Shown here: positions 4,978 to 62,191 of the stretch, in pieces
How the letters are laid out: every line of letters begins with the position of its first letter
How positions within the stretch are numbered: the stretch's first letter is position 1
DNA from: Chitinophagales bacterium
Lineage (GTDB): Bacteria; Bacteroidota; Bacteroidia; Chitinophagales; Saprospiraceae
Direction: 5' to 3'
Assembly (NCBI GenBank): GCA_026928325.1
Contig: JAIXKS010000011.1
Span: 2,697 to 66,696, forward strand
DNA length: 64,000 nt
Translations under genes and position numbers: made by a program
Notes under the pieces: model-generated
Seen by the model: the letters and a program-made list of their open reading frames with translations, nothing else
Told to the model about the DNA's origin: nothing
Database searches by the model: none

Positions 4978-5138
4978 GTGCTCCGTCCACAAAATAATCT
5001 TAATAAAATGTTGTTATTTTTTCAAATTTCATCGTTAAAAATACTCGTGATAGTTACCACTATGCCTGCGTTTTTTGCCTTGATCTTTCAAAAAATAACT
5101 TCCATTATAATTTAAGTCTTTTTTTATAGACTGAGTAC
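4978..5138 (+). mobile_element. MITE-like dispersed repeat, copy A
   Basis: A 161-bp element starting GTGCTCCGTC and ending GACTGAGTAC (imperfect terminal inverted repeats), flanked by TA on both sides (4976-4977 and 5139-5140). The core (about 5015-5115) is nearly identical to copies at 46866, 55773 and 62035, including the central ATAGTTACCACTAT hairpin. The element contains no transposase. A 35-codon frame inside it is shared with copies B and C but is probably not a gene. Confidence 0.82.
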
Positions 5139-5207
5139 TAGGTTGTTTTTATATAGCTATTGCAATGGTGATGTATGCTCATTAAAAAACCCAAAAAATA
5201 GTAAAAC

Positions 5208-5621
5208 ATGTTTGGAGGTAAAAGCGAAAAGACAAATAATGCGAATGTACAAGTTTCTGCCAATGCTAGTAATAGTATCGTAGAAGGAACAAGTATAAAG
5301 GGAGACATAGTAGCCGGTAATGATATCCGGATTGATGGAACGTTGGTTGGTAAGCTAGATTGTAAAGGTCGTGTGATCGTAGGTCCTCAAGGAAGGATAG
5401 AAGGCGATATCAAGTGTGTCAACGCCATCATCGAGGGTTCATTTGAAGGCACGCTTAGCGTTCAGGATTTACTTACGGTCAAAGAAACCGGCGTCATCCA
5501 TGGAGATGTAAGTTGTGACAAACTTTTTATTCAGACAGGCGCTGTTTTCAATACGACTTGTACCATGGGTGGTCAAAAAGTAAAACCTTTGGTTAATAAG
5601 GAAGTTGGCGCTAAGGCCTAA
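5208..5621 (+). CDS. bactofilin (polymer-forming cytoskeletal protein)
   Basis: A 137-residue bactofilin: residues ~25-120 form the repetitive right-handed beta-helix core (SIVEGTSIKGDIVAGNDIRI, then GKLDCKGRVIVGPQGRIEGD) with short disordered tails. Bactofilins polymerise without nucleotide into filaments on the inner membrane and help to shape cells or place envelope machinery. It is the first gene of a tight cluster with atpZ (32 bp gap), an arrangement found upstream of the F-type ATP synthase genes in many Bacteroidota. Confidence 0.93.
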   Translation: MFGGKSEKTNNANVQVSANASNSIVEGTSIKGDIVAGNDIRIDGTLVGKLDCKGRVIVGPQGRIEGDIKCVNAIIEGSFEGTLSVQDLLTVKETGVIHGDVSCDKLFIQTGAVFNTTCTMGGQKVKPLVNKEVGAKA

Positions 5622-5653
5622 CCTACACTTTACTACCCGAAAAGAAGGTAGCT

Positions 5654-5881
5654 ATGCCTAATAAAAAGGATCATAAGATATATGAAAAATCGCGCGAATA
5701 TTTAAAGTATTCAGGCTTGGCCTTTCAGTTTGCCGCAGTAGTTTTAGTTGGTTACTTTATAGGTAGCTGGTTGGATCAACGGTTGCAGTTCGATAAGCCG
5801 ATAATGACGATGTTGCTGATATTGGTATTGTTTTCAGGATATATGTACAAATTGTATGTCGAGCTAAGCAAGAAACCATAA
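5654..5881 (+). CDS. atpZ: AtpZ/AtpI family protein
   Basis: A 75-residue protein with two membrane segments (about residues 19-38 and 49-69) joined by GSWLDQRLQFDKP, the signature of AtpZ/AtpI. These small proteins are encoded at the head of F1Fo ATP synthase operons and are implicated in c-ring assembly or Mg2+ supply. Next downstream is another small membrane protein, but atpB does not follow: a biotin carrier gene takes its place, so the ATP synthase structural genes must lie elsewhere. Confidence 0.88.
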   Translation: MPNKKDHKIYEKSREYLKYSGLAFQFAAVVLVGYFIGSWLDQRLQFDKPIMTMLLILVLFSGYMYKLYVELSKKP

Positions 5882-5885
5882 TGCC

Positions 5886-6272
5886 ATGAACATGTATCTC
5901 AAAGGTTTAGCAATAACCTTATTAATATTGGGTCCATTATTGGTGTGCATACATATCATTTTAGCACCTTATGCCGATGTAGCGGTGACTGCTGTCGTCA
6001 TGTTTATCCTTTTGAGTTTAGCCTTATATCTAGTCTTAAAGCGACTTGCGATACATCCCAATCGGCAGTTGTTTTTATCAGTAACGATGTTGAATGTCTT
6101 AGTTAAAATCATTTTTACGGGCATTTTGATTTTTGGGTATATTCAAGAAACTTCACCACCAAATAATAATTTTGTGCTATCAGTTTTGGCCGTTTACGTG
6201 GCATTTACTATTTTTGAGAGTTGGTTTATGACGCGTATAGCACAAAGCGATGCGACAAATAAAATACCTTAA
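5886..6272 (+). CDS. four-helix membrane protein of the ATP synthase cluster (AtpI-like position)
   Basis: A 128-residue, very hydrophobic protein with four predicted membrane helices (about 5-27, 33-50, 62-84 and 93-113). I do not recognise a sequence motif; its position, 4 bp after atpZ, is that of the poorly conserved subunit I-like protein found between atpZ and atpB in Bacteroidota. The likely role in ATP synthase biogenesis is inferred from position only. Confidence 0.7.
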   Translation: MNMYLKGLAITLLILGPLLVCIHIILAPYADVAVTAVVMFILLSLALYLVLKRLAIHPNRQLFLSVTMLNVLVKIIFTGILIFGYIQETSPPNNNFVLSVLAVYVAFTIFESWFMTRIAQSDATNKIP

Positions 6273-6285
6273 AGTTTTAATCATC

Positions 6286-6765
6286 ATGAATACCATAATA
6301 GAAATACCGGGTATGCATCCCGTTGACCAAGATACCTTAAACAATCAACAAATAACCATCCTTGAGGAAAAGGGGCAATCAAAGAAAATATTGTTGGGTA
6401 ATACGATCTATGATGTGCTAGTTAAAAGTTTTGATTATGAGCAAAAAACTGCGGTGATTAATGTCGATGGCTATGATTTTAAAGTTTCTATGCAAGAACC
6501 TTTAGATCAGTTGATCGCTCAATTAGGCTTTTTGAAAGCCAACAAACATTCGGTTAAAGATATCAAGTCTCCGATGCCGGGATTAGTCGTCAGTGTTTTC
6601 GTAACCGTAGGTCAGCATGTCGAAGAGGGAGATAAGCTCCTAAGCTTAGAAGCCATGAAAATGGAAAACATACTAAAATGTCCCGGAACAGGAGTGGTCA
6701 AAAATATATTGGTTAAAGAAGGCGATTCGGTAGAAAAGAATGCATTGTTGATTGAGTTGGAGTAG
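6286..6765 (+). CDS. biotin/lipoyl carrier protein (BCCP-type)
   Basis: A 159-residue acyl-CoA carboxylase carrier protein. The C-terminal domain (residues ~92-159) carries the biotinylation motif EAMKMEN with biotinyl-lysine K125, and the PMPGLV hinge precedes it. The ATG at 6286 is chosen because the longer frame (ATG at 6250) would overlap the upstream gene by 23 bp and lengthen the protein without family support. No biotin carboxylase or carboxyltransferase gene is adjacent, so the partner subunits must be elsewhere; propionyl- or acetyl-CoA carboxylase are the likely complexes. Confidence 0.87.
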   Translation: MNTIIEIPGMHPVDQDTLNNQQITILEEKGQSKKILLGNTIYDVLVKSFDYEQKTAVINVDGYDFKVSMQEPLDQLIAQLGFLKANKHSVKDIKSPMPGLVVSVFVTVGQHVEEGDKLLSLEAMKMENILKCPGTGVVKNILVKEGDSVEKNALLIELE

Positions 6766-7448
6766 GCAGGTAGATTTTTGATATTATTTCTGATTGCACC
6801 TATATCCAGAATTTTCCCTTGCTTAGGTCGTACTTCAATGTATATAAAGGAGATAGTAAAATCTGTATGTTTGTGTTCTGATAAAGTAAACCTTTAATCC
6901 CTTTTCTTGAAGCAAGCTAATATAAATTTGGTTGAGTGTATGTTGAAAAAGAGATAATACTTAAATGAAAAGTAGTATTAATACGTTAATTCTACTTTGT
7001 TAACGTAGGAATTATTAGAAGGATCTTCGAATATGTTGTCAAAATTAGATTTTTTCAACCGTCTTTGTATATCAGTTTTTATACGCTTGTATAATGTTGT
7101 GATTTTTATCTTTTGAAGTGAAGTATTTCTTATAAGGTTTTGTTTTATGGTTAGAATTGTACAAATCTAATGATGTTATTATATGGGCTTAGGTACATCA
7201 ATACTTATTTGTTTTAGTTTTTTAAATTATTTGAAATAATATATACTTCACATAGATAAAAATGTTTATTTTAGCCCTATCATATACTATCTTACTGATT
7301 TTAAAAAGTTAAAATGATAGATAATAATTACGATCTACTGATAAATGTCGATAATTATACATGTATATAATTTTAATATAACTAAAGCCTTATTTAATAG
7401 GTTTTCACTTGAATGAATAATTTTTTTAATCAAAATTAACCTTAAGCT
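6766..7448. other. 683-bp AT-rich gap without a gene
   Basis: No credible ORF on either strand. The only structure I see is the hairpin repeat at 6955-6991, shared with 11307-11343. No clear promoter box was found close to the downstream start codon. Confidence 0.4.
6955..6991 (+). repeat. 37-bp hairpin repeat, copy 1
   Basis: The segment matches 11307-11343 at 35 of 37 positions. It can fold: TAATACT pairs with AGTATTA around an A-rich loop. Both copies lie upstream of genes for T9SS-secreted proteins (458 bp and 60 bp before the start codons). It could be a regulatory site, a processing hairpin or a small mobile remnant. Confidence 0.55.
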
Positions 7449-10400
7449 ATGTGTGCTAGGACTATTTTTACGTTTGTTTCCTTTTTATTTAATTTTTATT
7501 TATGTGGACAAAATAATGATCTGTACCAAACGGTGAATCCGACTTCATCAGAGGCGCATTATTGTGGCACTGATGAATTACACAAAAACTTGATGAGAAG
7601 CAATGAAGCATACAGAATCAACTTTGAGCGAAATGAAAGAGCTATAGATTCTGTAGTGCGTCAGAGACAAGGTATAAGCAAGCGTATGTCAGATCCGCTA
7701 TATACCATTCCAGTGGTAGTGCATGTGATTCATTTAGGAGAACCGGTAGGAGTAGGTAGCAATATATCTGATGCACAGATATTGGACGCCATCGACGGTC
7801 TGAATGAACGGTATAATAATACCTATGACAGCGGCCAAAGCGTAGATATAGGCATTCAGTTTTGTCTGGCCACGACGGATCCCAATGGCTGCCCCACTAC
7901 AGGTATCAATCGGGTTGATGGTTCTTCTGTTCAAGATTACATTTCAGATGGTATTGCTTGGAATAGTCCGTGTGGTGCTTCAGAGACGGATATAAAAGAT
8001 TTAAGCAGATGGCCGGTGTTGGATTATTACAATATCTGGGTTGTACATAGACTATGCGGAGGATGGACGGGTTATGCATATTATCCTTGGGGAGGGGACT
8101 ATGACGGAACAGTTATTGGTGCTGCATATATGAAATATACATTCAATACTCTTGCACATGAATTGGGGCATGGTTTTAATCTGTATCACACTTTCTTGGG
8201 AGATAATGGTGGCACCAAATGTCCTGATAATAATAATTGTTTGATAGATGGTGATAAAGTATGTGATACATCGCCACATAAAATGGAGGATTGTGGCGAA
8301 GCTAATCCTTGTAGTAATGACCCTTATTGGGATAATACCAGGTATAATCATATGAGCTATTGTAGTGGGAATAGATTTACCGATGGCCAGAGAGAACGAA
8401 TGCGTGCTGCTTGTACAGTATATCCACGTGCAAACCTATTGACATCATCAGGATGTGATCCAAATTGGAGTATTTATTTTACCTCCGATGAGGGGATGTG
8501 TGGTGATGATGATGGTTCTGTGACTGTTAATGTATCTGGTGGAACAGGGTATTCGTTTTTGTGGAGCAATGGTGCCACAACGCAAAGTATAAATAATTTA
8601 TCGGCAGGAACCTATATTGTGACTGTTTCAAATGACATGTGTAATATCATCGATTCAGCCAGAATTTATGATGGCTGCGATAGTAAGTATTTTATAACAA
8701 AGTGGAAATATCAGGAGGCATCGAACCAGCTTAGTTTTTTTGCCCAAACAGATGGTACGGTCGATTATACCTATACTGCCTTGCCATCAGGTAATAGTGG
8801 TAGCGGTAGTTTTAAATTGTTCAGACCGGGACTTGTTACATTGTCGTCCTTAAATATATTAGCTGGAGATACCGTAATATTACAAATGGAGCCTCAATAT
8901 TTGAAACTATTTTATAACTATGATGATATTTTGGGGTATAATCCTGATCGTAATAAATTGATAGATGTAAGTCAGTGGGGTTCTGCTGAATGGATTGACA
9001 TGACTTCAGCCTTTTATGGATGTTCTAATATGAATATGTCCGCTGTGGATATTCCCGATTTGAAATCTGTTCAGAGGATGGAAACAATGTTTTATGAAGC
9101 TAGCTCTTTTAATGGAGATATAGGAGGCTGGGATGTGTCAAATGTTACAAACATGAAATCAATGTTTTATGAAGCTAGCTCTTTTAACGGAGATATAAGT
9201 GGCTGGGACGTGTCAAATGTTACAAATATGGATGCAATGTTTTATGGAGCTAGCTCTTTTAATGGAGATATAGGAGGCTGGGATGTGTCAAATGTTACAA
9301 ATATGGAATCATTGTTTTATGGAGCCAGTTCGTTTAACCAGGATATAGGAAGTTGGGACGTGTCAAATGTTACAAATATGGATTTTATATTCATGAATGC
9401 TAGTAATTTTAACGGAGATATAAGCGGTTGGAGCATGTCAAATGTCACAAGAATGTTAGGAATGTTTGAGGGAGCTAGTTCTTTCAATAGAGATATAGGA
9501 AGTTGGGATGTGTCAAATGTTATTCTTATGGAATCAATGTTTAACAGAGCTAGTTCTTTCAATGGAGATATAAGAGGCTGGGATGTGTCAAAAGTTACAG
9601 ATATGAGTTACATGTTTTATGGAGCGGGTTCGTTTAACCAGGATATAGGGAGTTGGGATGTGTCAAATGTTACAAATATGAAATCAATGTTTTTTGAAGC
9701 TAGCTCTTTTAACCAGGATATAGGAGGCTGGGATGTGTCGCAGGTTCATGATATGAAGTATATGTTTTATTTGGCTACATCGTTTAATCAAAATATTGGT
9801 GGGTGGATCTTGAATGATAATGTTGATTTACAATATATGTTATCTGATTGTGGTTTGGATTGCATTTCCTATTCAGCAACCTTGTCCGGGTGGAAAAACA
9901 GTAATCCGGGCGTTAATGATCGAAGATTAGGTGCTGATGGACTGACATATGATGCAAGTGCTGTATCTGATAGAAATGTATTGATTAATGACCGTGGATG
10001 GATTATAATTGGCGATGTTTTTGTATTGGGCATCTGTGGAGATCCAGCGGGTAACTTTACTACCAAATGGATATTTGATTTGCCTGCAAGTCAACTTAAT
10101 TTTTTTGCACATACTACCGATGCTGTCAATTATACCTATACTGCATCACCATCAGGAAATAGTGGTAGTGGAAGTTTTAGTATGATGACATCCGGGCTTG
10201 TTACACTTACTTCATTAAAAATATCTGCTGGTGATACTGTCACGTTAAGTATAGAACCTCATCGTTTAAAGAAATTCTATAGTGGAGCAGGAAGCCCGGA
10301 TTGTAATAAATTAATTGATGTTAGTCAATGGGGATATTGTCAATGGTCTAGTATGAATCAGGCCTTTCGTGAATGCTCAAATTTGAAAGTCTCTGCAACA

Positions 10401-11279
10401 GATATCCCTGATTTGCGAAATGTTACAGATATGTATTATATGTTTAGTGATGCAAGTTCTTTCAATGCAGATATAAGTGGCTGGGATGTGTCAAATGTTA
10501 CAAATATGAGTGGAATGTTCAATGGAGCAAACTCTTTTAATGGAAATATCGGAAGGTGGGATGTATCAAATGTTAGATATATGAGTTACATGTTTAGTGA
10601 TGCGAGTTCTTTCAATGGAAATATCGGAGGCTGGGATGTATCAAAAGTTACAGATATGGATTACGTGTTTTATGGAGCAGGTTCGTTTAACCAGGATATA
10701 GGAAGTTGGGATGTGTCAAATGTTACAAATATGAGTGGAATGTTTTCAGGGGCTGTGTCATTCAATCAATCGATAGGAGACTGGGAATTAAATCCTTCAG
10801 TTGATCTGGTAAATATGTTGGATCAAAGTGGAATGGAATGTGCCATTTATAGTGCTATGCTTAAAGATTGGGCGCAGAAAAACAACCATCTTACTGATCG
10901 CACACTAGGTGCTGATGGTTTATATTTTGGGACAAATGTGATACAATTTAGAGATAGTTTGATCAACCGCGGTTGGACCATCACAGGAGATGTCGCATCA
11001 CAGGAGAAGTGTGGTACTACCTCTGTTGCTGAAACTACATACTTGCCAGTCACTATACATCCTAATCCTGTGGTATCCAATCTGTATCTGATGACAGACG
11101 GCCTAGTCATTGATAGCTATATCATCAGCAATATACAGGGACAGACGGTACGACCGGAGCAGGTCATATCCGCTTCCGTGGCTACTATTGATGTAGCAGA
11201 TTTGGCCGGAGGTATTTATATCCTGACTATAAAAGCAGGAGACAAGATCTATCATAGTCGGTTTGTTAAAGCGGGATAG
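7449..11279 (+). CDS. secreted M43-family metalloprotease with two BspA-like DUF285 repeat blocks and T9SS type A sorting domain
   Basis: A 1276-residue mosaic. A signal peptide (1-20) is followed by a pappalysin-like M43 domain: zinc motif [11 protein letters not shown] (H237, E238, H241, H247) and Met-turn NHMSY (M302). A SprB-type repeat (about 340-405) follows. Then two homologous modules (from residue 415, and from about residue 868), each a conserved 130-residue lead-in followed by 25-residue DUF285 units of the type MFYGASSFN[14 protein letters not shown]: ten units from residue 547 and five from 998. The end (from about 1204, [11 protein letters not shown] to the last residues) is a type A sorting domain. 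DUF285 repeats are surface beta-structures seen in BspA-like adhesins. Probably a surface or extracellular protease that binds other proteins or cells (inference). Confidence 0.9.
9087..9836 (+). repeat. ten tandem 75-bp DUF285-coding units
   Basis: In-frame tandem units of 75 bp, each encoding one 25-residue DUF285 repeat. Several neighbours are almost identical at DNA level (for example around 9100, 9175 and 9250), which implies recent unequal exchange. Confidence 0.85.
10440..10814 (+). repeat. five tandem 75-bp DUF285-coding units
   Basis: The second block of the same 25-codon units, half as long as the first block. The lead-in before it (from about 10054) is a diverged copy of the lead-in before block 1 (from 8691). 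Confidence 0.85.
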
Positions 11280-11306
11280 TAGGAGTATTGATAAAAAATT
11301 GATTTT

Positions 11307-11343
11307 TAATACTTAAAAGAAAAGTAGTATTAATAGGTTAATT
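11307..11343 (+). repeat. 37-bp hairpin repeat, copy 2
   Basis: Matches 6955-6991 with two mismatches. The stem here is 8 bp (TTAATACT / AGTATTAA). It lies between two T9SS-cargo genes, 28 bp after one stop codon and 60 bp before the next start. Confidence 0.55.
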
Positions 11344-11402
11344 AACAATATGCTGGGCAAGGTAGCCATTTATTTTACGGCATTTAAAATAAAAAATATA
11401 AA

Positions 11403-13538
11403 ATGAGGAATAATATTTTCATTTGGTTTCTACTGCCTATTAATATAGTATTGGGGCAAAATACTTGGTACGATTTGTACAATGAGCATAAGGAGAATAT
11501 CCTAACAAGTTTAAAGTTGCAAGAAAATACAATATTTGTATCGAGGGTCTCACCAGGTATGACAGAATCAAATCCTTTTTTGTCAACTGATGTCGTGTCA
11601 TTTGATTTAAATGGTAATGTATCAGGTCGGTTAATGTTCAATGAGTTAATCCCTGCTAAGTATGATGCATGGGGTTATAGATATGCCTATGGAAGACTTC
11701 AGCTACTCGATAAAAATTTAATTATTAGTGGACATATTACAGATCGAAATTTAGAAACAAAGTGCCATGTTTTTTCGACAGATTTAGAGGAAAATAAAAG
11801 TTTTAGTATATTCTCTGTTGATGGGATAATAACAGGCAATGAGGGTATATGTGTAGATGATTCGATTTTGTATATTTATGGTTTGTTATTAAAAGATAAT
11901 GTGGATTATGCGAATGTTATAAAATACAACATGAATCAACAAACGATAATATGGGATAAAATATACAAAAAGGGGATAAAGCAAAATCAAATTTGGGACT
12001 TCAAAAAGACTCATGATGGCAATTTTATTTTTATAAACTACCACTCTGACGCTTATGCAGGTTCCGGAGGGAATTCAGGATATCAGATTGTAAAGATAGA
12101 TCCTTCAGGAGCTATATTGGATACATTTAGCTATAAAGACCCAACTATAGATAGGCAAAATATATTAATAAGTAAAGAAGGAAATATTTATTATACTACG
12201 CAAAACAACCCATTCGATCATATCATTCCAACCAATGGACGTATCAATAAACTTTCAATAGATATGGATACAGTACTATGGAGCCTTGAACTACCGTCAA
12301 ATGCTTTTACTGACGGTAACAAATATAGGATATTTGATTATTTTCAGGCAGCAAACGGAGATATTATGGCTTGCGGCACAGTATGGTATATGCCCGGTGA
12401 ACCATTGAAGGCAGGTCTGAATGCTGGTTGGAATGGATTTTTGGCAAGAGTGAGTCAATCGGGAGAATTAATTTGGATTCGAAATTATAGATTATTCAAT
12501 ACACATACAAAGCTTCCAAGATCAGAATTTGGAGACTTTAGATCAGGGCAGTTAGTAAGTATTGCCGAGACAGAAGATGGTCATTTTATTTTAGGAGGTA
12601 CAGCAGGCTACACTAATACTCAGAGATTTGGACTTGGGGTTGAGGATACGATTTCTTCCTTATGGATTATGGTTGTGGATGGTATGGGCTGTATTGATGG
12701 AGAGGAATGTGAGGATGTCATACATTTGAGTGAGAAGAAGATGAATAATAATCATCAGATTGGAGATACGTGGTATTATGAAACTGAAGCTTATTTTGGA
12801 GGAGGTAACAGTAGTTTTTCCTACAAATCATTTTCTATTCAGGACACATTGTTTGATGGTACATATAATAAATATGTGCTAAATACGCAGGATACATTTT
12901 ATATGGATAACAGTAAGATGTACTTTTGGGATTGGCATTTTAAAGAATATATCATGTATTATGATTTTAAGGCTACTGAACCTTATGATGTGAAATATTA
13001 CAATCAATTTAATAATACAGAAGAAATAGCAACAATAATCATAGACTCTATTTCCTATATGCATTTTGGAAATGATTCGCTGAAGGTACAACATATACAT
13101 ATATTGAATAGTGGTACCTATGAAAATTATCATGAAGTAGTGTATGAAGGAATTGGTGCCGGACATTATGACATAAAATTTTTATTAGGATGTGGATTTT
13201 GTGATAATAATCCCATTACAACACATCTGAGATGTTTTACAAATCAAGAAATGACCTATCAGTTTGTCTCGTATGCTTGTGATAGTACATGGTTGATAAG
13301 TAATACTGTTGAAAGTGCCGAAGATAAAATTTTAACATTTCCTAATCCAGCAGAAGGGACAGTGTTTATCAAAGGTGTAATCGGAGATATCCCTTATGAA
13401 GTTTATACTGTCGATGGTCGGTTAATTCAGCATGGTATCATGGTTAACCAATCATTAAATTTAGACGCATCTGGGGTTTTTATTCTCAGATTATTCCAAA
13501 ACGGTGTGTGGATTAATAGGAGGATAGTGAATATGTAA
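11403..13538 (+). CDS. secreted T9SS type A sorting domain-containing protein, function unknown
   Basis: A 711-residue protein with an N-terminal signal (residues 1-19, ending LGQN). Residues ~25-435 consist of repeated segments such as ISGHITDR, FILGGTAGYT, KTHDGNFIFI and MACGTVWYMPGE, resembling beta-propeller-like repeats of secreted Bacteroidota proteins, each with a G-G-T/D-G-x-F turn. A cysteine-rich pair (CIDGEECEDV) separates this from a second beta-rich part. The end (about 646 onwards, FPNPAEGTVFI to the C-terminus) is a T9SS type A sorting domain. It lies in the same orientation as the M43 protein, 123 bp apart. The molecular function is not recognised. Confidence 0.83.
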   Translation: MRNNIFIWFLLPINIVLGQNTWYDLYNEHKENILTSLKLQENTIFVSRVSPGMTESNPFLSTDVVSFDLNGNVSGRLMFNELIPAKYDAWGYRYAYGRLQLLDKNLIISGHITDRNLETKCHVFSTDLEENKSFSIFSVDGIITGNEGICVDDSILYIYGLLLKDNVDYANVIKYNMNQQTIIWDKIYKKGIKQNQIWDFKKTHDGNFIFINYHSDAYAGSGGNSGYQIVKIDPSGAILDTFSYKDPTIDRQNILISKEGNIYYTTQNNPFDHIIPTNGRINKLSIDMDTVLWSLELPSNAFTDGNKYRIFDYFQAANGDIMACGTVWYMPGEPLKAGLNAGWNGFLARVSQSGELIWIRNYRLFNTHTKLPRSEFGDFRSGQLVSIAETEDGHFILGGTAGYTNTQRFGLGVEDTISSLWIMVVDGMGCIDGEECEDVIHLSEKKMNNNHQIGDTWYYETEAYFGGGNSSFSYKSFSIQDTLFDGTYNKYVLNTQDTFYMDNSKMYFWDWHFKEYIMYYDFKATEPYDVKYYNQFNNTEEIATIIIDSISYMHFGNDSLKVQHIHILNSGTYENYHEVVYEGIGAGHYDIKFLLGCGFCDNNPITTHLRCFTNQEMTYQFVSYACDSTWLISNTVESAEDKILTFPNPAEGTVFIKGVIGDIPYEVYTVDGRLIQHGIMVNQSLNLDASGVFILRLFQNGVWINRRIVNM

Positions 13539-13768
13539 TTCTAAAATGATATACATTTTTTCTAAGTTGTCGAATAAATTGAATAATCAAACTTAATTTT
13601 TTAGAGGTTTGTAATATGTTGTAATTGAAGAAATTTTTTAAATAGATATCATTTATGCATGATGAATCGGAATTTCATTTGGGCTATTCTTTTTGATAAT
13701 TTTCATGTTGAATTATTGTATTTTAAGTGAAATATACATCTTTAAATATTTTTGCCGATAAAAGTCAT

Positions 13769-13776
13769 TATCTTTG
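13769..13776 (+). promoter_or_regulatory. candidate -7 box (TATCTTTG) for pheS
   Basis: TATCTTTG matches the Bacteroidota -7 consensus and is 24 bp before the ATG at 13800. A TTTG at 13751-13754 is closer than the usual -33 spacing. Confidence 0.4.
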
Positions 13777-13799
13777 CAGGCTGAAAGATTATTAAATAT

Positions 13800-15691: not shown

Positions 15692-15811
15692 CAATCTACT
15701 TGTAAAGCTCAATTCAAGATATAGCTGGCAATATTTTTCAATGGGTTAGGGGTGAAATAATCACAAATGTTTCGATATTTGATTAGCTTTGCTGCGTCAA
15801 AAAGTAGAAAA

Positions 15812-16204: not shown

Positions 16205-16211
16205 TTTGTGG

Positions 16212-18198: not shown

Positions 18199-18278
18199 AT
18201 TTTTCTAAGCGACTGCAAAGGTAATACGATTTATATTAAAATTAAAATATTTTCAATTATTTTTTGAATTTTAATTAA

Positions 18279-18993: not shown

Positions 18994-18994
18994 A

Positions 18995-28211: not shown

Positions 28212-28279
28212 GTTATCTGTCTATAAAAAGACTTAAATAATGAATACATTTCATTAAGGTTTTTTTGATGACAGAGCAC
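28212..28279 (-). mobile_element. MITE-like dispersed repeat, copy E (internal deletion)
   Basis: Read on the minus strand, this 68-bp piece begins GTGCTCTGTC, continues through the same left arm (ACCTTAATGAAATGT), then jumps to the right arm (ATTATTTAAGTCTTTTTATAGACAGA) of the 160-bp element, losing about 90 bp of core. It ends 4 bp from the stop codon of the CoA-transferase gene. Confidence 0.72.
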
Positions 28280-45746: not shown

Positions 45747-47140
45747 ATGACAAAATATACTAATCGTAAGGATTATATCAGCACATTAGAGGCTTACAAA
45801 GATCAAGACCTCATAAAAGTAATTAGTGGTTTGCGTAGGTCTGGTAAAAGTACTTTGCTTGAGATGTACCAATTGATGTTGCTAAAACAAGGCGTAAAGG
45901 AAAATCAAATTGTTTTTCTGAATTTCGAAGATTTTGAACTACGTAAGTTTTTAAATGATTTGGATAGCCTATATTATTATATCATTGATTAATTGGATTT
46001 GTCAAAACCTTACTATGTGTTTTAGGACGAAATACAAAATGTAAATGAATTTGAGCGTTTGGTGGACGGGTTGTTTGTAAAACCCAATATAGATGTTTAC
46101 ATGACAGGTACTAATGCATTTTTACTATCTAGCGAATTGGCAACCTTGTTAAGTGGACGCTATATCGAGATTTCTATTCTTCCATTTTCATTCAAAGAAT
46201 ATTTAACAGCACGAAATATTGATGTCAGCAATAAGTATCTAAATTATGAAATTTTATTTTTTGAGTACATCAATGAAACATCACTTCCCAAAGGTGTTGA
46301 ATTACGAGAAGGTGGTTTCGATAAAATATACGAATATTTAGAGGCCATATATAAAACCATTATCGAGAAAGATATCACGCAGCGACATCAAATCAATGAT
46401 AAACGTGCTTTTGAAAATATTGTGAAATTTGTGGCTTCTAATATTGGTAATCCGCTCTCGCCAAGCAACATTGCCAAAACATTGAAACAAGACGGACAAA
46501 GTGTACACAATACGAATGTTGAAAGATACTTAGATTATTTGGTGGCATGTTTCGTGTTTTACAAAGTAAATCGTTTTGACCCTAAAGGTAAGAAGCAACT
46601 TGCTACACAAGAAAAGTACTATTTGGTCGATGCAGGTTTACTCAATATCTTAGCAGGTAAAGAGAGAACAACAGATAGAGGACATATTTTAGAAAATGTA
46701 GTTTATCTTGAATTACTTCGAAGAGGTAATAAGATATGGACAGGTACAAGTCGTAACAGTGAAGTTGACTTTGTATGCAGAACAAAAACTGGCGATATTG
46801 AATATTATCAAGTGGCAAGGCTGATGACCAACGAAAATACTGTGAAGCGGGTGTTTGCGGCATTAGTGCTCTGTCCACAAAAAAATTTTAATGAAATGTC
46901 GTTCTTTTTTCAAATCTCATCGTTAAAAATACTCGTCATAGTTATCACTATGCCTGCGTTTTTTGCCTTGGTCTTAAAAAAAATAACTTCCATTATCATT
47001 TAAGTCTTTTTATAGACAGAGCACAAGAATCAATCAAAGACAACTACCCTAAGTTTTTATTGACTACTGATAGCTTCACCCAAGATCGTAATGGAGTTAA
47101 GCATTTGAATGTATTTAATTGGTTACTTGATAATAACTAA
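45747..47140 (+). pseudogene. AAA-family ATPase with DUF4143 domain, broken by two stops and a MITE-like insertion
   Basis: The intact protein would be about 410 residues: Walker A GLRRSGKSTLLEMYQ near the start, Walker B at YYVF-stop-DEIQNV, and the DUF4143 C-terminal half (YYLVDAGLLNILAG, NSEVDFVCRTKTG). Two in-frame stops interrupt it (TAA at 45990-45992, TAG at 46023-46025; the TAG replaces the Leu codon of the Walker B region). A 159-bp repeat element is inserted at 46866-47024. Beyond it the frame continues as ESIKDNYPKF...NWLLDNN and stops at 47140. Such ATPases are common, transferable and often decay; the cellular role is uncertain. Confidence 0.88.
46866..47024 (+). mobile_element. 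MITE-like dispersed repeat, copy B (inside ATPase pseudogene)
   Basis: 159 bp, beginning GTGCTCTGTC and ending GACAGAGCAC (perfect 10-bp inverted ends). Bordered by TA (46864-46865) and AA (47025-47026), the latter probably a mutated copy of the duplicated TA. Deleting the element and one dinucleotide joins GCG-GCA-TTA to GAA-TCA-ATC in frame, which restores the expected DUF4143 end. Confidence 0.88.
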
Positions 47141-53807: not shown

Positions 53808-53831
53808 ATAAGACTGTTGTAAAATAAGTGG

Positions 53832-53868
53832 AGCGGTTTGTCAGCAAGTGCGGGCAAACCGCTTTTTG
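53832..53868 (+). terminator. rho-independent terminator
   Basis: AGCGGTTTG pairs with CAAACCGCT around a 14-nt loop and is followed by TTTTTG, 25 bp after the stop codon of the 2113-residue protein gene. Confidence 0.82.
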
Positions 53869-54196
53869 TTTTGGGTCAGATTATCTTGAATTATGCTTGG
53901 TGCTTAGGTAGCTGAAGTTACAAAAGGAGCAAGATCATCTCTAGTTGTAACTTGGGTCACTGATAGTATGAATAAATTGCAATATCATTGTAGTGAGAAA
54001 AGATTGAATCTATTTTTAAAAGTATTGACACTAAATAATGAAAGTGAGAAGTATAAATTAAATAGCGTTCTTTAAAGAAAGATTTGATTTTCTTCAATTG
54101 GTAAATCGTGGGTTTGTATGGATGGAGCATCCTACGATGATTAAATGTGTATTATTTTTTGAAATTAATTTTTTGCAATCTATAAAATGTATAACA
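53869..54196. other. gap before the second beta-helix protein gene
   Basis: About 330 bp without repeat or RNA-like structure. A frame from 54098 runs into the next gene but encodes no signal-like or conserved sequence before 54197. Confidence 0.3.
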
Positions 54197-55699: not shown

Positions 55700-55772
55700 T
55701 TTCGCATTTTATCGGAGAAATAGGCAAAAGTGAAAGCCGTTTATTCTAGGAATTTTCTTGTTGACAGAGCAC

Positions 55773-55931
55773 TTGCTCAGTCAACAAAAGAAGTTTAATG
55801 AAATGTCGTTCTTTTTTCAAATCTCATCGTTAAAAATACTCGCCATAGTTACCACTATGCCTGCGTTTTTCGCCTTGATCTTTAAAAAAATAACTTCCAT
55901 TATTATTTAAATCTTTTTATAGACAGAGCAC
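55773..55931 (+). mobile_element. MITE-like dispersed repeat, copy C
   Basis: 159 bp, core almost identical to copies A, B and D, ending GACAGAGCAC|TA. The left end is degenerate (TTGCTCAGTC). It is immediately preceded by another GACAGAGCAC end at 55763-55772, so GTTGACAGAGCAC and TTGCTCAGTCAAC form an inverted pair; perhaps a remnant of an older copy into or next to which this one inserted. Confidence 0.78.
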
Positions 55932-55976
55932 TAAAAATATCACATATCGTTTTCAATTGTTTTAAAAAGGGTGTTC

Positions 55977-56009
55977 AGGTTTGTCAATTAAAATTGGCAA
56001 ACCTTTTTT
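55977..56009 (+). terminator. strong hairpin terminator
   Basis: AGGTTTGTCAATT pairs with AATTGGCAAACCT (13 bp, one G-U) around a 2-nt A linker, followed by TTTTTTG. It would terminate transcription coming from the beta-helix gene and the element. Confidence 0.75.
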
Positions 56010-56255
56010 GTCTTCTACAATACTAAATTGAAATGAATGACGTTTTGATATAACCCTTTCCTTAAAATAATTGTTATAACAAATAACTTGTACGTAATTG
56101 ATATTTGAATGCATGGATGTTTCAGTGCAATTTAATAGGTAAAGCAAAGTTTAATTTTTTTTCACTACGAGAATATTTGTTTGAATGCTTTATCTCGAAT
56201 TAATAATTTGCATAAGCATTTTATAAAGAATCTTATTGAAATAAATTAATATTTT

Positions 56256-56285
56256 ACATGGTTTTGTTTCGTTTAAAAACCATGT
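56256..56285. promoter_or_regulatory. perfect inverted repeat in the cysE leader
   Basis: ACATGGTTTT at 56256-56265 and AAAACCATGT at 56276-56285 are perfectly complementary (10 bp, 10-nt spacer), 33 bp before the cysE ATG. Either a transcription-factor operator or an RNA hairpin controlling cysE-cysK. No known riboswitch pattern is recognised. Confidence 0.5.
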
Positions 56286-56317
56286 GAGACATTGATATCA
56301 TTTAACCATATCTAAAG

Positions 56318-57139
56318 ATGTTAGATAAAACTTTCAAGCATATAGACAATTTTAAACCTAGCGCTATTGATATTCCGGTAAATAAATGCGAATTAGAAGC
56401 GGTGATCGTGTCGCTATATCAATGTATGTTTCCGATTTGTCAATGTCCGGATTTTACGACGGTGCATGGTGAGATGAAGGAAGTTGCACAAAAATTGTGC
56501 GACCATATTGCGCGATTATTGGATATAGACAAGGCTATAGCTATAACCGAATACTTTTTTAGTCGATTTGATGATTTACATATTCAGTTGCTGAAGGATG
56601 CAGCGTGTTATGTTGACAATGATCCGGCTGCCCGTTCGCTTGAGGAGGTCATCATCACTTATCCTGGGTTTTATGCCTTGTCCGTATATCGTATGGCTCA
56701 TGTATTATATGAGCAAGGTGTTCCGTTGATACCACGGTTCTTTACGGAATACGCGCATTCAAAAGTTGGTATTGACATTCATCCAGGCGCTGTTATTGGT
56801 AAAAACTTTTTTATGGACCACGGTACAGGGATTGTCATCGGAGAAACAACGGTCATCGGTGATAATGTCAAGATTTACCAAGGCGTTACCCTTGGAGCAC
56901 TCTATGTAGAAAAGAAGTTGTCTGATATTAAAAGACATCCTACCATCGAAGATAATGTGGTGATATATTCCAATGCGACGATACTTGGAGGAGATACTGT
57001 GGTAGGACATGACTCTGTGATTGGCGGCGGTACTTGGTTGACGCATTCGGTTATTCCTTTTTCTCTGGTTTACAATCCGGCAGATGTCAAAATAAGAACG
57101 GTCAAATCTTTTGACCAACCTCATGATTTTGTGATATAA
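56318..57139 (+). CDS. cysE: serine O-acetyltransferase
   Basis: A 273-residue SAT that acetylates serine for cysteine synthesis. The N-terminal helical domain (about 1-135) is followed by the left-handed beta-helix with hexapeptide repeats: GIDIHPGAVIGKNFFMDHGT (catalytic His region), then GIVIGETTVIGDNVKIYQGV and TILGGDTVVGHDSVIGGGTW. The length fits the long-form bacterial enzyme. It forms an operon with cysK (31 bp gap), which condenses O-acetylserine with sulfide. Confidence 0.95.
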   Translation: MLDKTFKHIDNFKPSAIDIPVNKCELEAVIVSLYQCMFPICQCPDFTTVHGEMKEVAQKLCDHIARLLDIDKAIAITEYFFSRFDDLHIQLLKDAACYVDNDPAARSLEEVIITYPGFYALSVYRMAHVLYEQGVPLIPRFFTEYAHSKVGIDIHPGAVIGKNFFMDHGTGIVIGETTVIGDNVKIYQGVTLGALYVEKKLSDIKRHPTIEDNVVIYSNATILGGDTVVGHDSVIGGGTWLTHSVIPFSLVYNPADVKIRTVKSFDQPHDFVI

Positions 57140-57170
57140 ATAATTGTTAAATAATAATAAACATATTAAT

Positions 57171-58079
57171 ATGAAATATAATAATATATTAGAATCTATT
57201 GGAAATACGCCGCATGTACGGTTGAACAAGTTGTTTCCAAGCCACGAAGTTTGGATTAAGTTAGAAAAACAAAATCCGGGTGGTAGTATCAAAGACCGTA
57301 TTGCCTTGTCGATGGTAGAATCTGCAGAAAGATCCGGTCAGCTTCAGCCTGGTGGTACGATTATCGAACCAACTTCAGGAAACACAGGCGTAGGTTTGGC
57401 AAGTGTAGGTGCTTACAAAGGGTATAAAGTTATCATTGTGATGCCCGAGTCTATGTCTTTAGAACGACGAAGATTGATTGCCCTTTATGGAGCTGAGTTG
57501 GTCTTGACACCTAGAGAATTAGGTATGAAAGGCGCTATTGCCAAGGCCGAGGAATTGCAAAATGAGATTTCAGGTTCATGGATTCCTATGCAGTTTGAAA
57601 ATCAAGCGAATGTTGAAGTCCATGCAAAACAAACGGCTCAAGAGATATTGAATGATTTTCCTGAAGGGTTCGATTATTTGATTTCCGGAGTAGGAACAGG
57701 TGGACATATTTCAGGTGTCGGAAAAATGCTTAAAGCTCAATTCCCAACCTTGAAAGTTATCGCAGTAGAGCCTATCGATTCTCCGGTTATTTCTGGTGGA
57801 AATCCAGGACCACATGCCTTACAAGGATTAGGTGCAGGCTTTATTCCCAAAACTTTGGATATGTCTGTGGTCGATAGTGTGATCACCATAGGCAAGGATG
57901 AAGCCTTCGATGCTATCCGAAGATTGGCAAAGGAGGAAAGTATCTTAGGTGGGATTTCTACTGGGGCTTCCCTCGCGGCCGTGGCTAAAAAGATCTTGGA
58001 GTTACCGGAAGGTTCTAGGATTTTGACTTTCAATTATGATACAGGGGAAAGATACCTCTCTGTAGAAGGTTTGTTTTAA
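57171..58079 (+). CDS. cysK: cysteine synthase A (O-acetylserine sulfhydrylase)
   Basis: A 302-residue PLP enzyme. The PLP-lysine is K41 in [12 protein letters not shown]; the substrate loop [23 protein letters not shown] for the PLP phosphate, and GISTGAS are all present. The ATG at 57171 matches the family start ([18 protein letters not shown]); the frame from 57144 adds nine residues without support. Directly after cysE, so the products can form the cysteine synthase complex. Confidence 0.95.
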
Positions 58080-58158
58080 AAGGCGGGAATCGTAGGATTT
58101 GTAGTGAAAGTTGGGTGGATTCGGATGGCTTTAGTTGATAAATTGCTTCATACGTAAT

Positions 58159-58166
58159 TATCTTTG
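58159..58166 (+). promoter_or_regulatory. candidate -7 box (TATCTTTG) for thyA
   Basis: TATCTTTG lies 62 bp before the thyA ATG; a GTTG at 58134-58137 is a possible -33 box with 21-bp spacing. Confidence 0.45.
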
Positions 58167-58227
58167 TGACTGTTTTATATATATTTCGAAATTTTATTTA
58201 TAATTTTACGCAATTATATTTTTAGCT

Positions 58228-59022
58228 ATGAAGCAGTATCTCGATCTATTAAACCATATTCTGGACCATGGGACGTCAAAATCAGATAGAACCGGAACAG
58301 GAACAATCAGTGTATTTGGTTATCAAATGCGTTTTGATCTTAGCAAGGGATTTCCGATGTTGACAACCAAAAAATTGCACTTAAAATCCATAATTTATGA
58401 ACTGTTATGGTTTCTTAAAGGTGATACAAATATTAAATATCTGACAGACCATGGTGTAAGGATTTGGAATGAATGGGCAGATGAAGCCGGAAATCTCGGA
58501 CCGGTCTATGGGAAGCAATGGAGATCTTGGGCTACTGTTGATGGAAAAACGGTGGATCAGATTTCTGAACTCATCGATACCTTAAAAAATAATCCCGATT
58601 CTCGTCGAATGATTGTGAACGCTTGGAATGTTGGAGAGCTCAAACAAATGGCACTCACGCCGTGCCACTGCATGTTTCAATTTTATGTAGCTGATGGGAA
58701 GTTGAGTTGCCAATTGTATCAAAGATCAGCGGATACCTTCCTTGGCGTTCCTTTTAATATAGCCTCTTATGCACTATTAACCATGATGATAGCGAATGTG
58801 TGCAATCTTGAATATGGTGAATTTATTCATACTTTTGGCGATGTACACTTGTACAATAATCACTTAGAGCAAGCTAGAGAGCAATTGGCGAGAACACCCA
58901 AGGCGCTGCCTAAAATGCGCATAAATCCCAACGTAACCTCCATTTTTGATTTTGAATATGAAGATTTTACATTAGAAGATTATCATCCCGATCCACATAT
59001 TAAGGCAGAAGTTTCCGTATAG
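58228..59022 (+). CDS. thyA: thymidylate synthase
   Basis: A 264-residue ThyA, the same length as the E. coli enzyme. It methylates dUMP to dTMP using methylene-tetrahydrofolate. The catalytic Cys146 lies in [25 protein letters not shown] and [19 protein letters not shown] form the nucleotide-binding site. The first residues fit the usual start. Confidence 0.97.
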
Positions 59023-59240
59023 GTTGATGTTTGGAATGTTTAATGGTTTAAGGATGTAATTAGTATTGTTGATTCGTGGATTAGTTGAAGAAAGTGGTGG
59101 AACTTATGGAAATGCTGGAATTGCTGAATTGATGGATAAATTGTTGGATTTGTATTAAAGGCTTTAGGGTTTATATGTGTAAGAGTTTAGTTTTTAGGTG
59201 TGGTAAACCAAAAAACTCCCAACTCCTAATTCGTAATTGA
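59023..59240. repeat. degenerate short-word repeats between converging genes
   Basis: Words such as tgttgattcgtggattagttga, gctggaattgctgaattgat and aactcctaattcgtaattgatt recur; similar in style to the arrays after 756, 21839 and 45550. No ORF or RNA structure. Confidence 0.4.
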
Positions 59241-59876
59241 TTATTTTTTTCGAATCAATTGAATCCCGTCTCTTAGCGGAAGTATCATACTTTCTACCCG
59301 AGTATCGGCTGCTATTTTTTTGTTAAAATCTTGGATGATTTTTGTCTTTTTATCGGGATTTGGGTCAATTACTTTTCCGTCCCAGAGTACATTGTCCACC
59401 AAAATTACAGCACCAGGGCGGCATTTGTCGATGACTAAATCAAAATAGACAGAATAGCCTTCTTTATCTGCATCAATAAAGACGAGATCAAAGGTTGAAT
59501 CAAGGGTAGGTATGATGGCTTTAGCATCTCCTTGTATCAAGCGGATGCGGTCATTCATAGATGATTGATTAAAAAATCGTTCGGCGATAAAAGCGTGTTC
59601 CGGATTGTACTCGATGGTGATCAAATGGCCATTTTGAGCCAATCCATGCGCTAAGCAAATAGCCGAATACCCCGTAAAAGTGCCTATTTCCAAGATAACT
59701 TTTGGATTGACCATTTTACTGATAAGGGTTAGAAATGCACCTTGAAGCGATCCGGACAGCATCCGTGGTGCGAGCGTCTCCAGATGTGTTGCACGATCGA
59801 TGTCACGAAGTATAGGGTCAGGATTAAGGCTTAGTTTTTCGCAATAATCATGGATGGCTTCACTTAAATTATTCAT
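59241..59876 (-). CDS. O-methyltransferase (class I SAM-dependent, COMT-like)
   Basis: A 211-residue methyltransferase of the small caffeoyl-CoA/catechol O-methyltransferase family. The SAM motif is EIGTFTGYSAICLAHGL (about 80), with metal-binding/catalytic residues in LVFIDADKEGYSVYFD and VDNVLWDGKV. The substrate is unknown. Its start lies 8 bp inside the upstream transporter gene, so the two are co-transcribed; the transporter might export the methylated product (inference). Confidence 0.91.
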   Translation of the reverse strand: MNNLSEAIHDYCEKLSLNPDPILRDIDRATHLETLAPRMLSGSLQGAFLTLISKMVNPKVILEIGTFTGYSAICLAHGLAQNGHLITIEYNPEHAFIAERFFNQSSMNDRIRLIQGDAKAIIPTLDSTFDLVFIDADKEGYSVYFDLVIDKCRPGAVILVDNVLWDGKVIDPNPDKKTKIIQDFNKKIAADTRVESMILPLRDGIQLIRKK

Positions 59877-60780
59877 ATTGCTCTAGGGTTGATGATTTAT
59901 ATTTACTTAATATAGGATACAAAAATACAGATAAAAGGATGATAGCAGCTCCTATATAAAACATCGGTGTTAGAGATTTGTGCTCCTTGAAGAGTAAAAT
60001 GGCCAAAATAATACCATAAATGGGCTCGAGATTTATGGTCAGATTGACTGCAAATGCCGATAATTGCCGGAGCGCTTTAAGTGTTAGGACTTGAGCCCAC
60101 GTTGTACAAAGAAAAGCCAAAATAATCAGCCACAACCATTCGATCCATGTCACTGGAAGGTAGGTATGAAGTTCTACGCCCGATATGGTCAGTAGGAGTA
60201 ATGCTAAGCTCACGAGCATCCACGAACCGGACAATTCGATGAAGGACATGGTATAAGGATCTGTCTCTTGAATATAGATTTTATTCAAGACTGAAAATAT
60301 AGCTGCAAATAAGGCCGAAAGCAAGCCAACACCAACACCCAAATAATATCCTGACTCAATATTATTGACAATGAGTATCATCCCGGGTATAATCAACATT
60401 CCGGTAAATACTTGCATAGGTTCTATCTTTTTATTTGTAAACCAAGGTTCAAAGATCGAGGTAAAAAAGGTGGTGGTACTCAGACAAACAAGACATATCG
60501 AAACATTGGAAAGTTTTAAAGAACCATAAAAACATATCCAATGCAAGCCGATGATGGCGCCAATGCCTAAATATCGCCATATTAACGCTTTAGGAAGTTG
60601 GCTCAGATGCTTACCAAACTGAATAAAAAAGAGCAAGCTAAAAACCGTCAACAACACGCGCCACCAAACTAAAACCACGGCGGGTAAGTGGATGAGTTCA
60701 CCTAAAATGGCTGTAAGACCAAACAGCAAAACAGCTGTATGAATCTGAATATAAGGAACCACTTTTTCGGAACGTGCCAT
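59869..60780 (-). CDS. EamA/DMT family transporter
   Basis: A 303-residue inner-membrane protein with ten helices in two EamA repeats (AVLLFGLTAILGELI at the start; LLSALFAAIFSVLNKIY begins the second). Drug/metabolite transporter superfamily, substrate unknown. The ATG at 60780 is chosen for its A-rich upstream sequence typical of Bacteroidota; an ATG at 60798 would add six residues. It overlaps the O-methyltransferase gene by 8 bp. Confidence 0.88.
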   Translation of the reverse strand: MARSEKVVPYIQIHTAVLLFGLTAILGELIHLPAVVLVWWRVLLTVFSLLFFIQFGKHLSQLPKALIWRYLGIGAIIGLHWICFYGSLKLSNVSICLVCLSTTTFFTSIFEPWFTNKKIEPMQVFTGMLIIPGMILIVNNIESGYYLGVGVGLLSALFAAIFSVLNKIYIQETDPYTMSFIELSGSWMLVSLALLLLTISGVELHTYLPVTWIEWLWLIILAFLCTTWAQVLTLKALRQLSAFAVNLTINLEPIYGIILAILLFKEHKSLTPMFYIGAAIILLSVFLYPILSKYKSSTLEQYE

Positions 60781-61039
60781 TGTTTTTAAAATATACATGC
60801 AAAAGTAATGTTTCTACGGTCAAAAAGACTCAAGGATACATATATTTCATCCTTTTTGGCTGATATGCGGATTATGCCATTGATTTCGTATAAGTTGAGC
60901 AGAGTAGCTGATTTGGAGCTGTTGTGGTTTGGAATGGATTTTCTAAAGCTCAATTTGAGTTAAATCAATGAATCTTGCAAATAATTATTTGGTTTTGGTA
61001 CGAAAACTGCTGAAATTTGGAATAAAATTGTTCGACTAC
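60781..61039. other. divergent intergenic region without a gene
   Basis: Between the DMT gene (minus) and the prs promoter (plus). No repeats or RNA genes seen. Confidence 0.3.
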
Positions 61040-61069
61040 TTTGAAAGAGTAAAAATAGCTGTATTTTTG
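61040..61069 (+). promoter_or_regulatory. Bacteroidota promoter (TTTG-N18-TATTTTTG) for prs
   Basis: TTTG at 61040-61043, an 18-bp spacer, then TATTTTTG at 61062-61069, matching both consensus boxes; 23 bp before the prs ATG. Confidence 0.6.
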
Positions 61070-61091
61070 TGTTTCCAATCTAAGAATCAAT

Positions 61092-62027
61092 ATGGCTGAC
61101 GTTAAACTATTTTCCGGAACACAATCTCGACATCTTGCAGAACTCATTTCTGATTACTACGGATATCCATTGGGAGACATTACAATCAGTAATTTTTCTG
61201 ACGGCGAAATGCAGATTGTCATCAATGAATCCGTACGAGGATGTTATACTTTTTTTATAGCTTCAACCTATGGAGCTGCAGAAAATCTCATGGAATTGCT
61301 CCTGATGATAGATAGTGCAAAACGCGCATCATCGGGATATATTACGGCTGTAATACCATATTTTGGGTATGCACGTCAGGATAGAAAGGATAAGGCGAGA
61401 GTTCCGATTTCGGCAAAACTTGTCGCTAATCTTTTACAAGCTTCCGGTGTCAATAGAATTATGACAATGGATCTTCATGCTGAGCAGCTGCAAGGATTTT
61501 TTGACATTCCGGTTGACCACTTGAAAAGTGAAGCCATTTTTATTCCTTATTTGTCAGAGCTAGATTTGAGCAATGTCACCTTTGCTTCGCCCGATGTCGG
61601 TGGTGTAAAGCGTGCTAGAAGTTATGCTAAATATTTTGGAAGGGATCTCGTTATTTGTGATAAAGAACGCCGTGTAGCCAATCAGGTGGCAGGAATCACT
61701 GTAATCGGAGATGTTGCCGGCAAAGATGTGATATTAATCGACGATATCATCGATACTGCGGGAACCTTGTGTAAGGCTTCTGACGCCCTTCTTGAAAAAG
61801 GCGCTAAAAGTGTAAAGGCGATTTGCACACACCCAGTTTTATCAGGCAAGGCTTACGAAAATATCAACAACTCTTCCTTGAGTGAAGTAATCGTAACTGA
61901 TACGCTGCCTTTCAAAGGTCAATCGGACAGGATTAAAGTACTTTCTTGTGCCAAACTATTTGCACGAGCCATTAGAAATACGCACGAGTTTAGATCTATA
62001 GAAGCATTATTCGTAGATAAGAATTAA
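61092..62027 (+). CDS. prs: ribose-phosphate pyrophosphokinase
   Basis: A 311-residue PRPP synthase (ribose 5-phosphate + ATP to PRPP + AMP). Type I domain pair: the ATP-binding DRKDKARVPISAK flexible loop, the Mg-binding DLHAEQLQGFF motif, and the PRPP loop VILIDDIIDTAGT. The length is normal. Followed by a MITE-like element 8 bp after the stop and then a bidirectional terminator. Confidence 0.97.
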   Translation: MADVKLFSGTQSRHLAELISDYYGYPLGDITISNFSDGEMQIVINESVRGCYTFFIASTYGAAENLMELLLMIDSAKRASSGYITAVIPYFGYARQDRKDKARVPISAKLVANLLQASGVNRIMTMDLHAEQLQGFFDIPVDHLKSEAIFIPYLSELDLSNVTFASPDVGGVKRARSYAKYFGRDLVICDKERRVANQVAGITVIGDVAGKDVILIDDIIDTAGTLCKASDALLEKGAKSVKAICTHPVLSGKAYENINNSSLSEVIVTDTLPFKGQSDRIKVLSCAKLFARAIRNTHEFRSIEALFVDKN

Positions 62028-62034
62028 GTGGTTA

Positions 62035-62191
62035 GTGCTCTGTCAATAAAAGGATTTTAATGAAATGTCGTTTTTTTCAAATCTCATCGTTAAAAATTCT
62101 CACCATAGTTACCACTATGCCTGCGTTTTTTGCCTTGATCTTTAAAAAAATAATTTCCCTTGTAATTTAAGCCTTATTATAGACAAAGCAC
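62035..62191 (+). mobile_element. MITE-like dispersed repeat, copy D
   Basis: 157 bp, GTGCTCTGTC to GACAAAGCAC, flanked by TA on both sides (62033-62034, 62192-62193). Same core as the other copies with a 2-nt deletion near the left arm. Confidence 0.85.

Follow-up and report, generated by a model that had tools for sequence, protein, structure and literature searches.

What kind of sequence is a gene-less repeat of about 160 bp that recurs, bordered by TA, at several places of a single stretch of bacterial DNA? The question is raised by positions 2,697 to 66,696 of contig JAIXKS010000011.1 of a Chitinophagales bacterium of the family Saprospiraceae (assembly GCA_026928325.1), a stretch of 64,000 nucleotides referred to below as the window. 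An initial annotation, made from the sequence alone, described there a dispersed repeat family resembling miniature inverted-repeat transposable elements (MITEs). The copies can probably be considered a high-copy, non-autonomous MITE-like element that inserts at TA and is moved in trans, and that represents the local form of a superfamily spread across a whole bacterial class.

Copies in the window and in the genome

The four long copies and one deletion copy reported in the initial annotation are all present in the window (Table 1), with the inverted ends GTGCTCTGTC/GACAGAGCAC found in them at 0–2 changes each, and none contains a transposase gene. The long copies at 4978, 55773, and 62035 are 75–92% identical to the one at 46866. 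Copy strand is named after the core read AAGGCAAAAAACGCAGGCATAG..CGAGTATTTTTAACG. The TA borders, described as present at most copies, are found on both sides only at 4978 and 62035, and on one side at 46866, 28212, and 55773.

Table 1. Element copies, the interrupted gene, and core-less arrays (window positions, unless a locus is named).
Feature	Position	Strand	Remarks
Full copy, 161 bp	4978..5138	-	Flanks CTA / TAG; strand from core read AAGGCAAAAAACGCAG..CGAGTATTTTTAACG
Core-deleted copy, 68 bp, left and right arms only	28212..28279	+	Inverted-repeat match to the 46866 copy; TA left, TT right
Split ATPase gene, part before the element	46059..46865	+	DUF4143, E 7.7e-26; AAA_14, E 1.6e-9
Full copy, 159 bp, within AAA_14/DUF4143 ATPase gene	46866..47024	-	TA left, AA right
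Split ATPase gene, last 37 codons	47027..47137	+	Begins after extra AA at 47025-47026
Likely remnant of another element's right end	55753..55772	+	..GTTGACAGAGCAC; adjoins the 55773 copy
Full copy, 159 bp	55773..55931	-	TA right only; piece of another element end (..GTTGACAGAGCAC) in place of left TA
Full copy, 157 bp	62035..62191	-	Flanks TTA / TAA; 7 bp past the stop of a ribose-phosphate pyrophosphokinase gene
Core-less arm-bounded hairpin array, G392	L245 420-1104		
Core-less arm-bounded hairpin array, G392	L245 15411-15864		
Core-less arm-bounded hairpin array, G392	L248 12245-12576		
Core-less arm-bounded hairpin array, G392	L243 323-688		

The genome to which the window belongs (3.72 Mb in 74 contigs) contains 218 matches (110 + 108 on the two strands) to a 43-nt core pattern with at most three mismatches, and 119 + 120 matches to a 22-nt core pattern at the same tolerance; the reversed patterns gave none. 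The copy number, about 220–240, is far beyond chance. The anatomy of the element was taken from 127 distinct copies, of which 94 have both ends and 33 were left out because of N runs, contig edges, or unclear ends. Exactly 159 bp were counted in 57 of the 94 delimited copies, and the flanks bear out the genome-wide association with TA: it stands on both sides of 38 of the 46 delimited single copies, 60 of 67 outer left ends are preceded by TA (43 by CTA), and 65 of 70 outer right ends are followed by it (50 by TAG). The family is thus short, gene-less, equipped with terminal inverted repeats, and present in high copy number, as MITEs are. It is also worth mentioning that copies coincide with some contig ends and N stretches of the assembly.

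Tandem arrays of the element run head to tail. Of 32 junctions between neighbours, 15 contain TA, 11 only one base (T or A), and 3 no base at all; the other 3 fit none of these types. Tandem neighbours are 95.7% alike on average, compared with 91.7% for random pairs, and since 10 of 18 delimited tandem pairs lie above the 95th percentile of random-pair likeness, the arrays probably expand in place, the breakpoints lying at the element ends.

The clearest trace of an insertion is the interrupted ATPase gene at 46866. Its first part ends with ..FAAL, and the reading frame resumes, two bases past the element, with ESIKDNYPKFLL... For the 85 joined residues, 188 plasmid records give a match that spans 80% or more of the query at one place, and the five plasmid matches listed are single pieces with E values down to 3e-12. 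Because the joined protein is continuous in these plasmid homologues, the site is read as a gain of 159 + 2 bp in which the right TA is now AA, and a target duplication is thus indicated, at the protein level, for this one gene interruption. Empty sites in related strains, suggested as a check in the initial annotation, were not seen. At 62035 the congener G005 has both homologous genes and no element between them; the aligned parts are 222 bp apart in G005 and 271 bp apart here, with intergenic DNA too diverged for the exact site to be aligned. At the 46866 locus no homologue of the interrupted ATPase gene could be aligned in any of the four congeners compared (L201 and L204–L206), so they are uninformative on the empty site there.

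Gene context was derived with a simple open reading frame (ORF) caller for 76 array blocks of the same genome, 72 of which lie between ORFs (22 convergent, 10 divergent). The statement that copies are mostly located directly behind a stop codon holds in part: 27 of the 86 flanking 3' gene ends are within 30 bp of a copy, although the median distance is 72.5 bp. For the 61 flanking 5' starts the median is 165 bp and only 5 are within 30 bp, so that the copies avoid the 5' sides of genes rather than sit at stops.

A shared hairpin core between different arms

When the whole element was compared by BLAST with 60 genomes, it was present in 16, its own included, and the matches listed outside the genus are confined to query positions 36–134 of 163, which correspond to the core and the inner arms. 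What is conserved is the hairpin in the middle, about 53 nt long (CAAGGC..GCATAGC-N4-GCTACGG..AACG), within elements of about 160 bp; in the loci of BLAST-positive genomes and in named records the same core lies between differing inverted arms. A cultured bacterium, Mesonia profundi MT50 (L075, L078), is among the carriers. A covariance model of the core and inner arms (R1) matches at least 33 of 396 genomes of the class (own included), in 20 of 199 genera and 15 families, the first figure being a lower bound because 11 candidates per genome were scored. In a sample of the phylum 10 of 395 genomes are matched, including G683 of another class with five matches, of which the one checked for arms has them paired. 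Among the listed named stretches with the core, 29 of 34 are labelled Saprospiraceae, and the surroundings of the element, compared by eye, are alike in L038 (genome G025 of the window's family, f1) and the Saprospiraceae record L092. Searches of phages, plasmids, and viral contigs gave no match to the element, and no title or beginning of an abstract among the open-licence PMC papers listed describes the core.

The arms behave differently from the core. At 20 of 26 loci checked they pair better than all 50 shuffles, the elements being 159–172 bp long. Between genomes the core averages 64% identity, a value raised by the core-based choice of sequences, and the arms 46% (shuffled arms, 40%); the corresponding means within genomes are 80% and 71%. 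The arm types seen comprise GTGCTCTGTC, ATACCAAAT, AGGGTCTG, AGGCATTG, TTAAGTAGT, TAGAGCTAAATTG, and GTGTCATGTCAA. Seven copies in the single-contig genome G370 (L260–L266) each have their own arm sequence, and copies of this genome carry divergent core subtypes, e.g., AAAATTTT..CATAGC..GTTACGG..AAAATTTTAACG. A core hairpin common to elements with differing ends hints at an old group of mobile hairpins.

The fold is reflected in covariation. RNAalifold applied to 31 elements yielded 42 pairs, 32 of them with changes on both sides; 90.2% of the cells are paired, compared with 69.0% after shuffling and 39.6–46.5% when the sequences are slid, and the covariation value is 0.535 against 0.167 in shuffles, the shuffle contrasts being inflated by related rows, the slid controls retaining relatedness, and the structure being derived from these same sequences. 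The copy at 46866 has a fold z of -9.05 as RNA and -5.43 as DNA. Among the arm mismatches of the 31 elements G.T exceeds A.C (121 to 43), with 26 rows above, none below, and 5 ties. Each member can be pictured as a palindrome of about 160 bp whose single strand folds into one long hairpin; the tip of about 53 nt is conserved across families, whereas arm sequence changes and arm pairing stays. In Rfam searches of seven element-bearing loci with E up to 10 nothing on an element came near the gathering score; two plant microRNA models (E 2.9 and 4.1) overlap the L041 element.

The mover and the alternative explanations

If the copies are such MITE-like elements, they would insert at TA, best within CTAG, and a transposase acting on the inverted ends would move them in trans, with the conserved core possibly working in the folded single strand. 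CTAG is the target preference of IS630, which the context of the copies fits. Yet the IS630/Tc1-type mobiliser proposed in the initial annotation did not come to light, in contrast to the mobile, non-autonomous character of the TA-flanked family, which stands. DDE_3, the IS630-type domain, has no match in the own genome, and no full-length IS630-type transposon with the same ends was found; of 16 other genomes searched, 13 show the element or core (G001, G004, and G005 showed none), and DDE_3 was found in one, G009, and has no match in 12 of the 13 element-bearing ones, in a search whose control detects 3 of 14 known genomes. An IS630 parent was rejected on these grounds. Since no enzyme of this type is seen in the own genome, the mover would be of another type or lost.

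Other transposases of the same genome gave no better candidate. It contains 13 DDE_Tnp_1 genes and three Y1_Tnp matches. At all 13 DDE_Tnp_1 loci no end of the element's kind belongs to the insertion sequence (IS), by which an IS4/IS5-type parent was dismissed; the end matches at L099, L101, L103, and L108 are nearby element copies, except a lone end-like sequence at L103 367, CTAGTGCTTTGTC, with no arm or core beside it. The same locus, from contig C49, has at 1152–3233 an IS with a 563-aa DDE_Tnp_1 transposase lying between two element copies, each of which lacks the adjoining end. A Y1/HUH mover was likewise rejected, the three Y1_Tnp loci having neither core nor end match in the stretches fetched. 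A lone-end pattern occurs over five genomes at 10 places, and none has an inverted partner (at most one mismatch) at a gene-sized distance within the 1.5 kb fetched; of these lone ends, L331 is a divergent element copy that the BLAST comparison also hit, and at L330 an end-like partner lies at a distance of 104 bp. An autonomous element sharing the ends was thus not found among the DDE_Tnp_1 loci and lone-end places examined.

The strand orientation of the copies might speak for another route, namely movement in single-stranded form at the replication fork by an HUH-type or similar mechanism. Among 99 array blocks from the listed places, a subset of the copies, 46 of 66 neighbouring blocks share their orientation (shuffle mean 32.8; 12 of 20,000 shuffles reach 46), and in 71 of 95 blocks the core strand runs against the GC skew of its contig (leave-one-out p 0.0004); in a joint fit (n 68) the local gene strand contributes nothing further once skew is included. 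A strong regional bias is seen on contigs C2, C13, C14, C30, C39, and C41. However, 11 other genomes did not show the bias (40 of 77 regions, 3 of 80 with mixed orientation having been dropped beforehand), in a test that is blunt because skew is often weak in those stretches; replication-linked orientation was accordingly set aside as a general property and remains an observation on the own genome. With only three Y1_Tnp matches there, none near a core copy in the fetched stretches, and with a TA duplication such as that at 46866 not expected of HUH elements, replication-fork movement is the least probable of the explanations considered and can be held very unlikely. Hardly less improbable is an ordinary MITE derived by internal deletion from one IS630/Tc1-type IS, the core being leftover IS DNA: the TA flanks and CTAG preference would suit it, and according to the part of PMC2229807 drawn on here the RUP element of pneumococcus is believed to have arisen in this way, but DDE_3 is missing as described, and leftover DNA is not expected to keep one core over 15 families while the ends change.

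A more serious competitor, though still a doubtful one, is a conserved structured RNA, regulatory or acting at 3' ends, that hitch-hikes on several MITE families, the core being selected for an RNA function, e.g., processing by RNase III as in NEMIS. The covariation, the fold as RNA, and the surplus of G.T over A.C agree with it, as do the other hairpin modules carried by the arms in genome G392, and RNase III acts on Correia hairpins according to the portion of PMC2649163 available. In contrast, the copies are dispersed and young in the own genome rather than located at shared sites, and the element is absent in G005 at the sole comparable syntenic site. The core strand runs opposite to co-directional neighbouring genes in 25 cases and along them in 11 by one ORF calling, and 24 to 18 (p 0.54) by a second, so a bias against the gene strand was not upheld, and read-through transcription does not preferentially yield the core strand. 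A role of the core in mobilisation is regarded as somewhat likelier than one in RNA processing of host transcripts.

Several observations weigh against the reading of the copies as TA-inserted elements moved in trans, with a core at work in the folded strand. TA is lacking on one or both sides of 8 of the 46 single copies, and 33 of 127 copies had been excluded beforehand. The ATPase frame runs on upstream of the part at 46059..46865 through two in-frame stops, so the gene is decayed anyway and the insertion need not have broken it. Six of the 26 loci checked, many of which are weak hits, have no arm pairing above the 50 shuffles, and the rows of alignment A1 and the R1 hits were found via the core, which inflates its conservation and leaves arm pairing and length unaffected. 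Besides G.T over A.C, G.A prevails over C.T (95 to 17) and G.G over C.C (25 to 5); as G-rich mismatches prevail generally, the G.T excess may reflect a G-rich strand and not wobble tolerance. In G392 arms of the local form enclose, in four places, 310–690 bp of other hairpins (e.g., GGTCGATTTACGACC) and no core; movement may thus not require the core, and arms can travel or persist in its absence; conversely, the core occurs with many different arms. Finally, no mobiliser was found, the search in the own genome having covered three transposase families (DDE_3, DDE_Tnp_1, and Y1_Tnp).

Elsewhere in the window, 75-bp tandem repeats occupy 8990–10792 within an ORF of 1276 aa (7449–11279) with DUF285 repeats, a peptidase M43 domain, and a secretion-system C-terminal sorting domain. 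Rfam at gathering thresholds recognised only one tRNA in the window.

Comparison with known repeat elements

Bacterial MITEs have been reviewed (PMC2229807, PMC10969869, in the parts consulted), and several resemble the present family. The ERIC (IRU) elements of enterobacteria share the TA ends and are small palindromes (PMC2229807, same part) but measure 127 bp; kinship with them was rejected, as one E. coli locus (L338) has a block score of 15.0 against a shuffle mean of 12 and no in-register model hit. RUP of Streptococcus pneumoniae is likewise a small gene-less repeat with TA as its target, and has a matching IS630-Spn1 (PMC2229807, same part), whereas none was found here. MITECca01 of Cardinium, also from Bacteroidota, is a high-copy MITE of about 240 bp, derived from a resident IS982 according to the accessible part of PMC9769881; here no parent IS was found. 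The REP/BIME sequences with RAYT are palindromes of 20–40 bp beside a Y1 transposase, unlike the 159-bp element, whose genome has Y1_Tnp loci without core or end match.

Resemblance extends further to the Correia elements (CREE/NEMIS) of Neisseria, which have TA ends, inverted repeats, lengths of mostly 105–107 or 154–156 bp, and a hairpin transcript (PMC2649163, PMC2229807, PMC5039591), and number just over 100 copies in gonococci (PMC5039591); in the parts of these papers used here, their mobilising mechanism is given as undetermined and their 26-bp repeat as found in Neisseria only (PMC2649163). The element described here resembles them in TA ends, inverted repeats, size, and hairpin. In the Correia core, blocks CAAGGC / GCAG / hairpin (6-bp stem, 4-nt loop) / GCAAG / AACGC can be aligned with those of the element at similar spacing; stem, loop, and the second spacer (7 nt) are equal, whereas the first spacer measures 9 rather than 7. 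The Correia elements differ in their ends (TATAGTGGATTAA versus GTGCTCTGTC), shorter arms, and the lack of the CATAGC/GCTATG hairpin. A 40-nt query from the Correia core matched two chromosome-sized N. gonorrhoeae records filed as plasmids. The PLSDB entries NZ_CP119140.1 and NZ_CP119142.1, N. gonorrhoeae of 2.17 Mb, are filed as plasmids and are chromosome-sized. When the blocks are those of alignment A4, the score is 29.14 for the Correia core, 35.39 for the own element, and 34.29 for L335, while the true members L234 (26.07) and L239 (18.24) are below Correia, as is L236 (28.48). The score of 29.14 was reached by none of 20,000 shuffles, the blocks and ranges having been set after the likeness was noticed, and by no piece among 24,844 others, most of them rich in AT; the single control piece scoring at or above it was the L241 element itself. 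Covariance models run on 1.3 kb gave a match to the Correia core roughly in register with R1 (E 0.017) and E 0.068 with R2, and the core-only model R3 gave no in-register Correia hit there. Kinship is thus suggested by the block test and weakly or not at all supported by the covariance models, and is to be taken as a lead. That a single ancient superfamily with a fixed core and interchangeable arms joins the Bacteroidota elements and the Correia elements of Neisseria, the core rather than the ends marking what a widespread mobilising system would recognise, would be a rather unlikely extension of it.

MITEs are normally tied by their ends to one parent transposon. Here it is the ends that vary between genomes, whereas one core and the palindromic fold are retained across the class; if a single transposase recognised the ends, the opposite would be expected. 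The R1 model can be used for annotating such copies, and the core may offer a handle for finding the mover of such elements, perhaps including that of the Correia elements.

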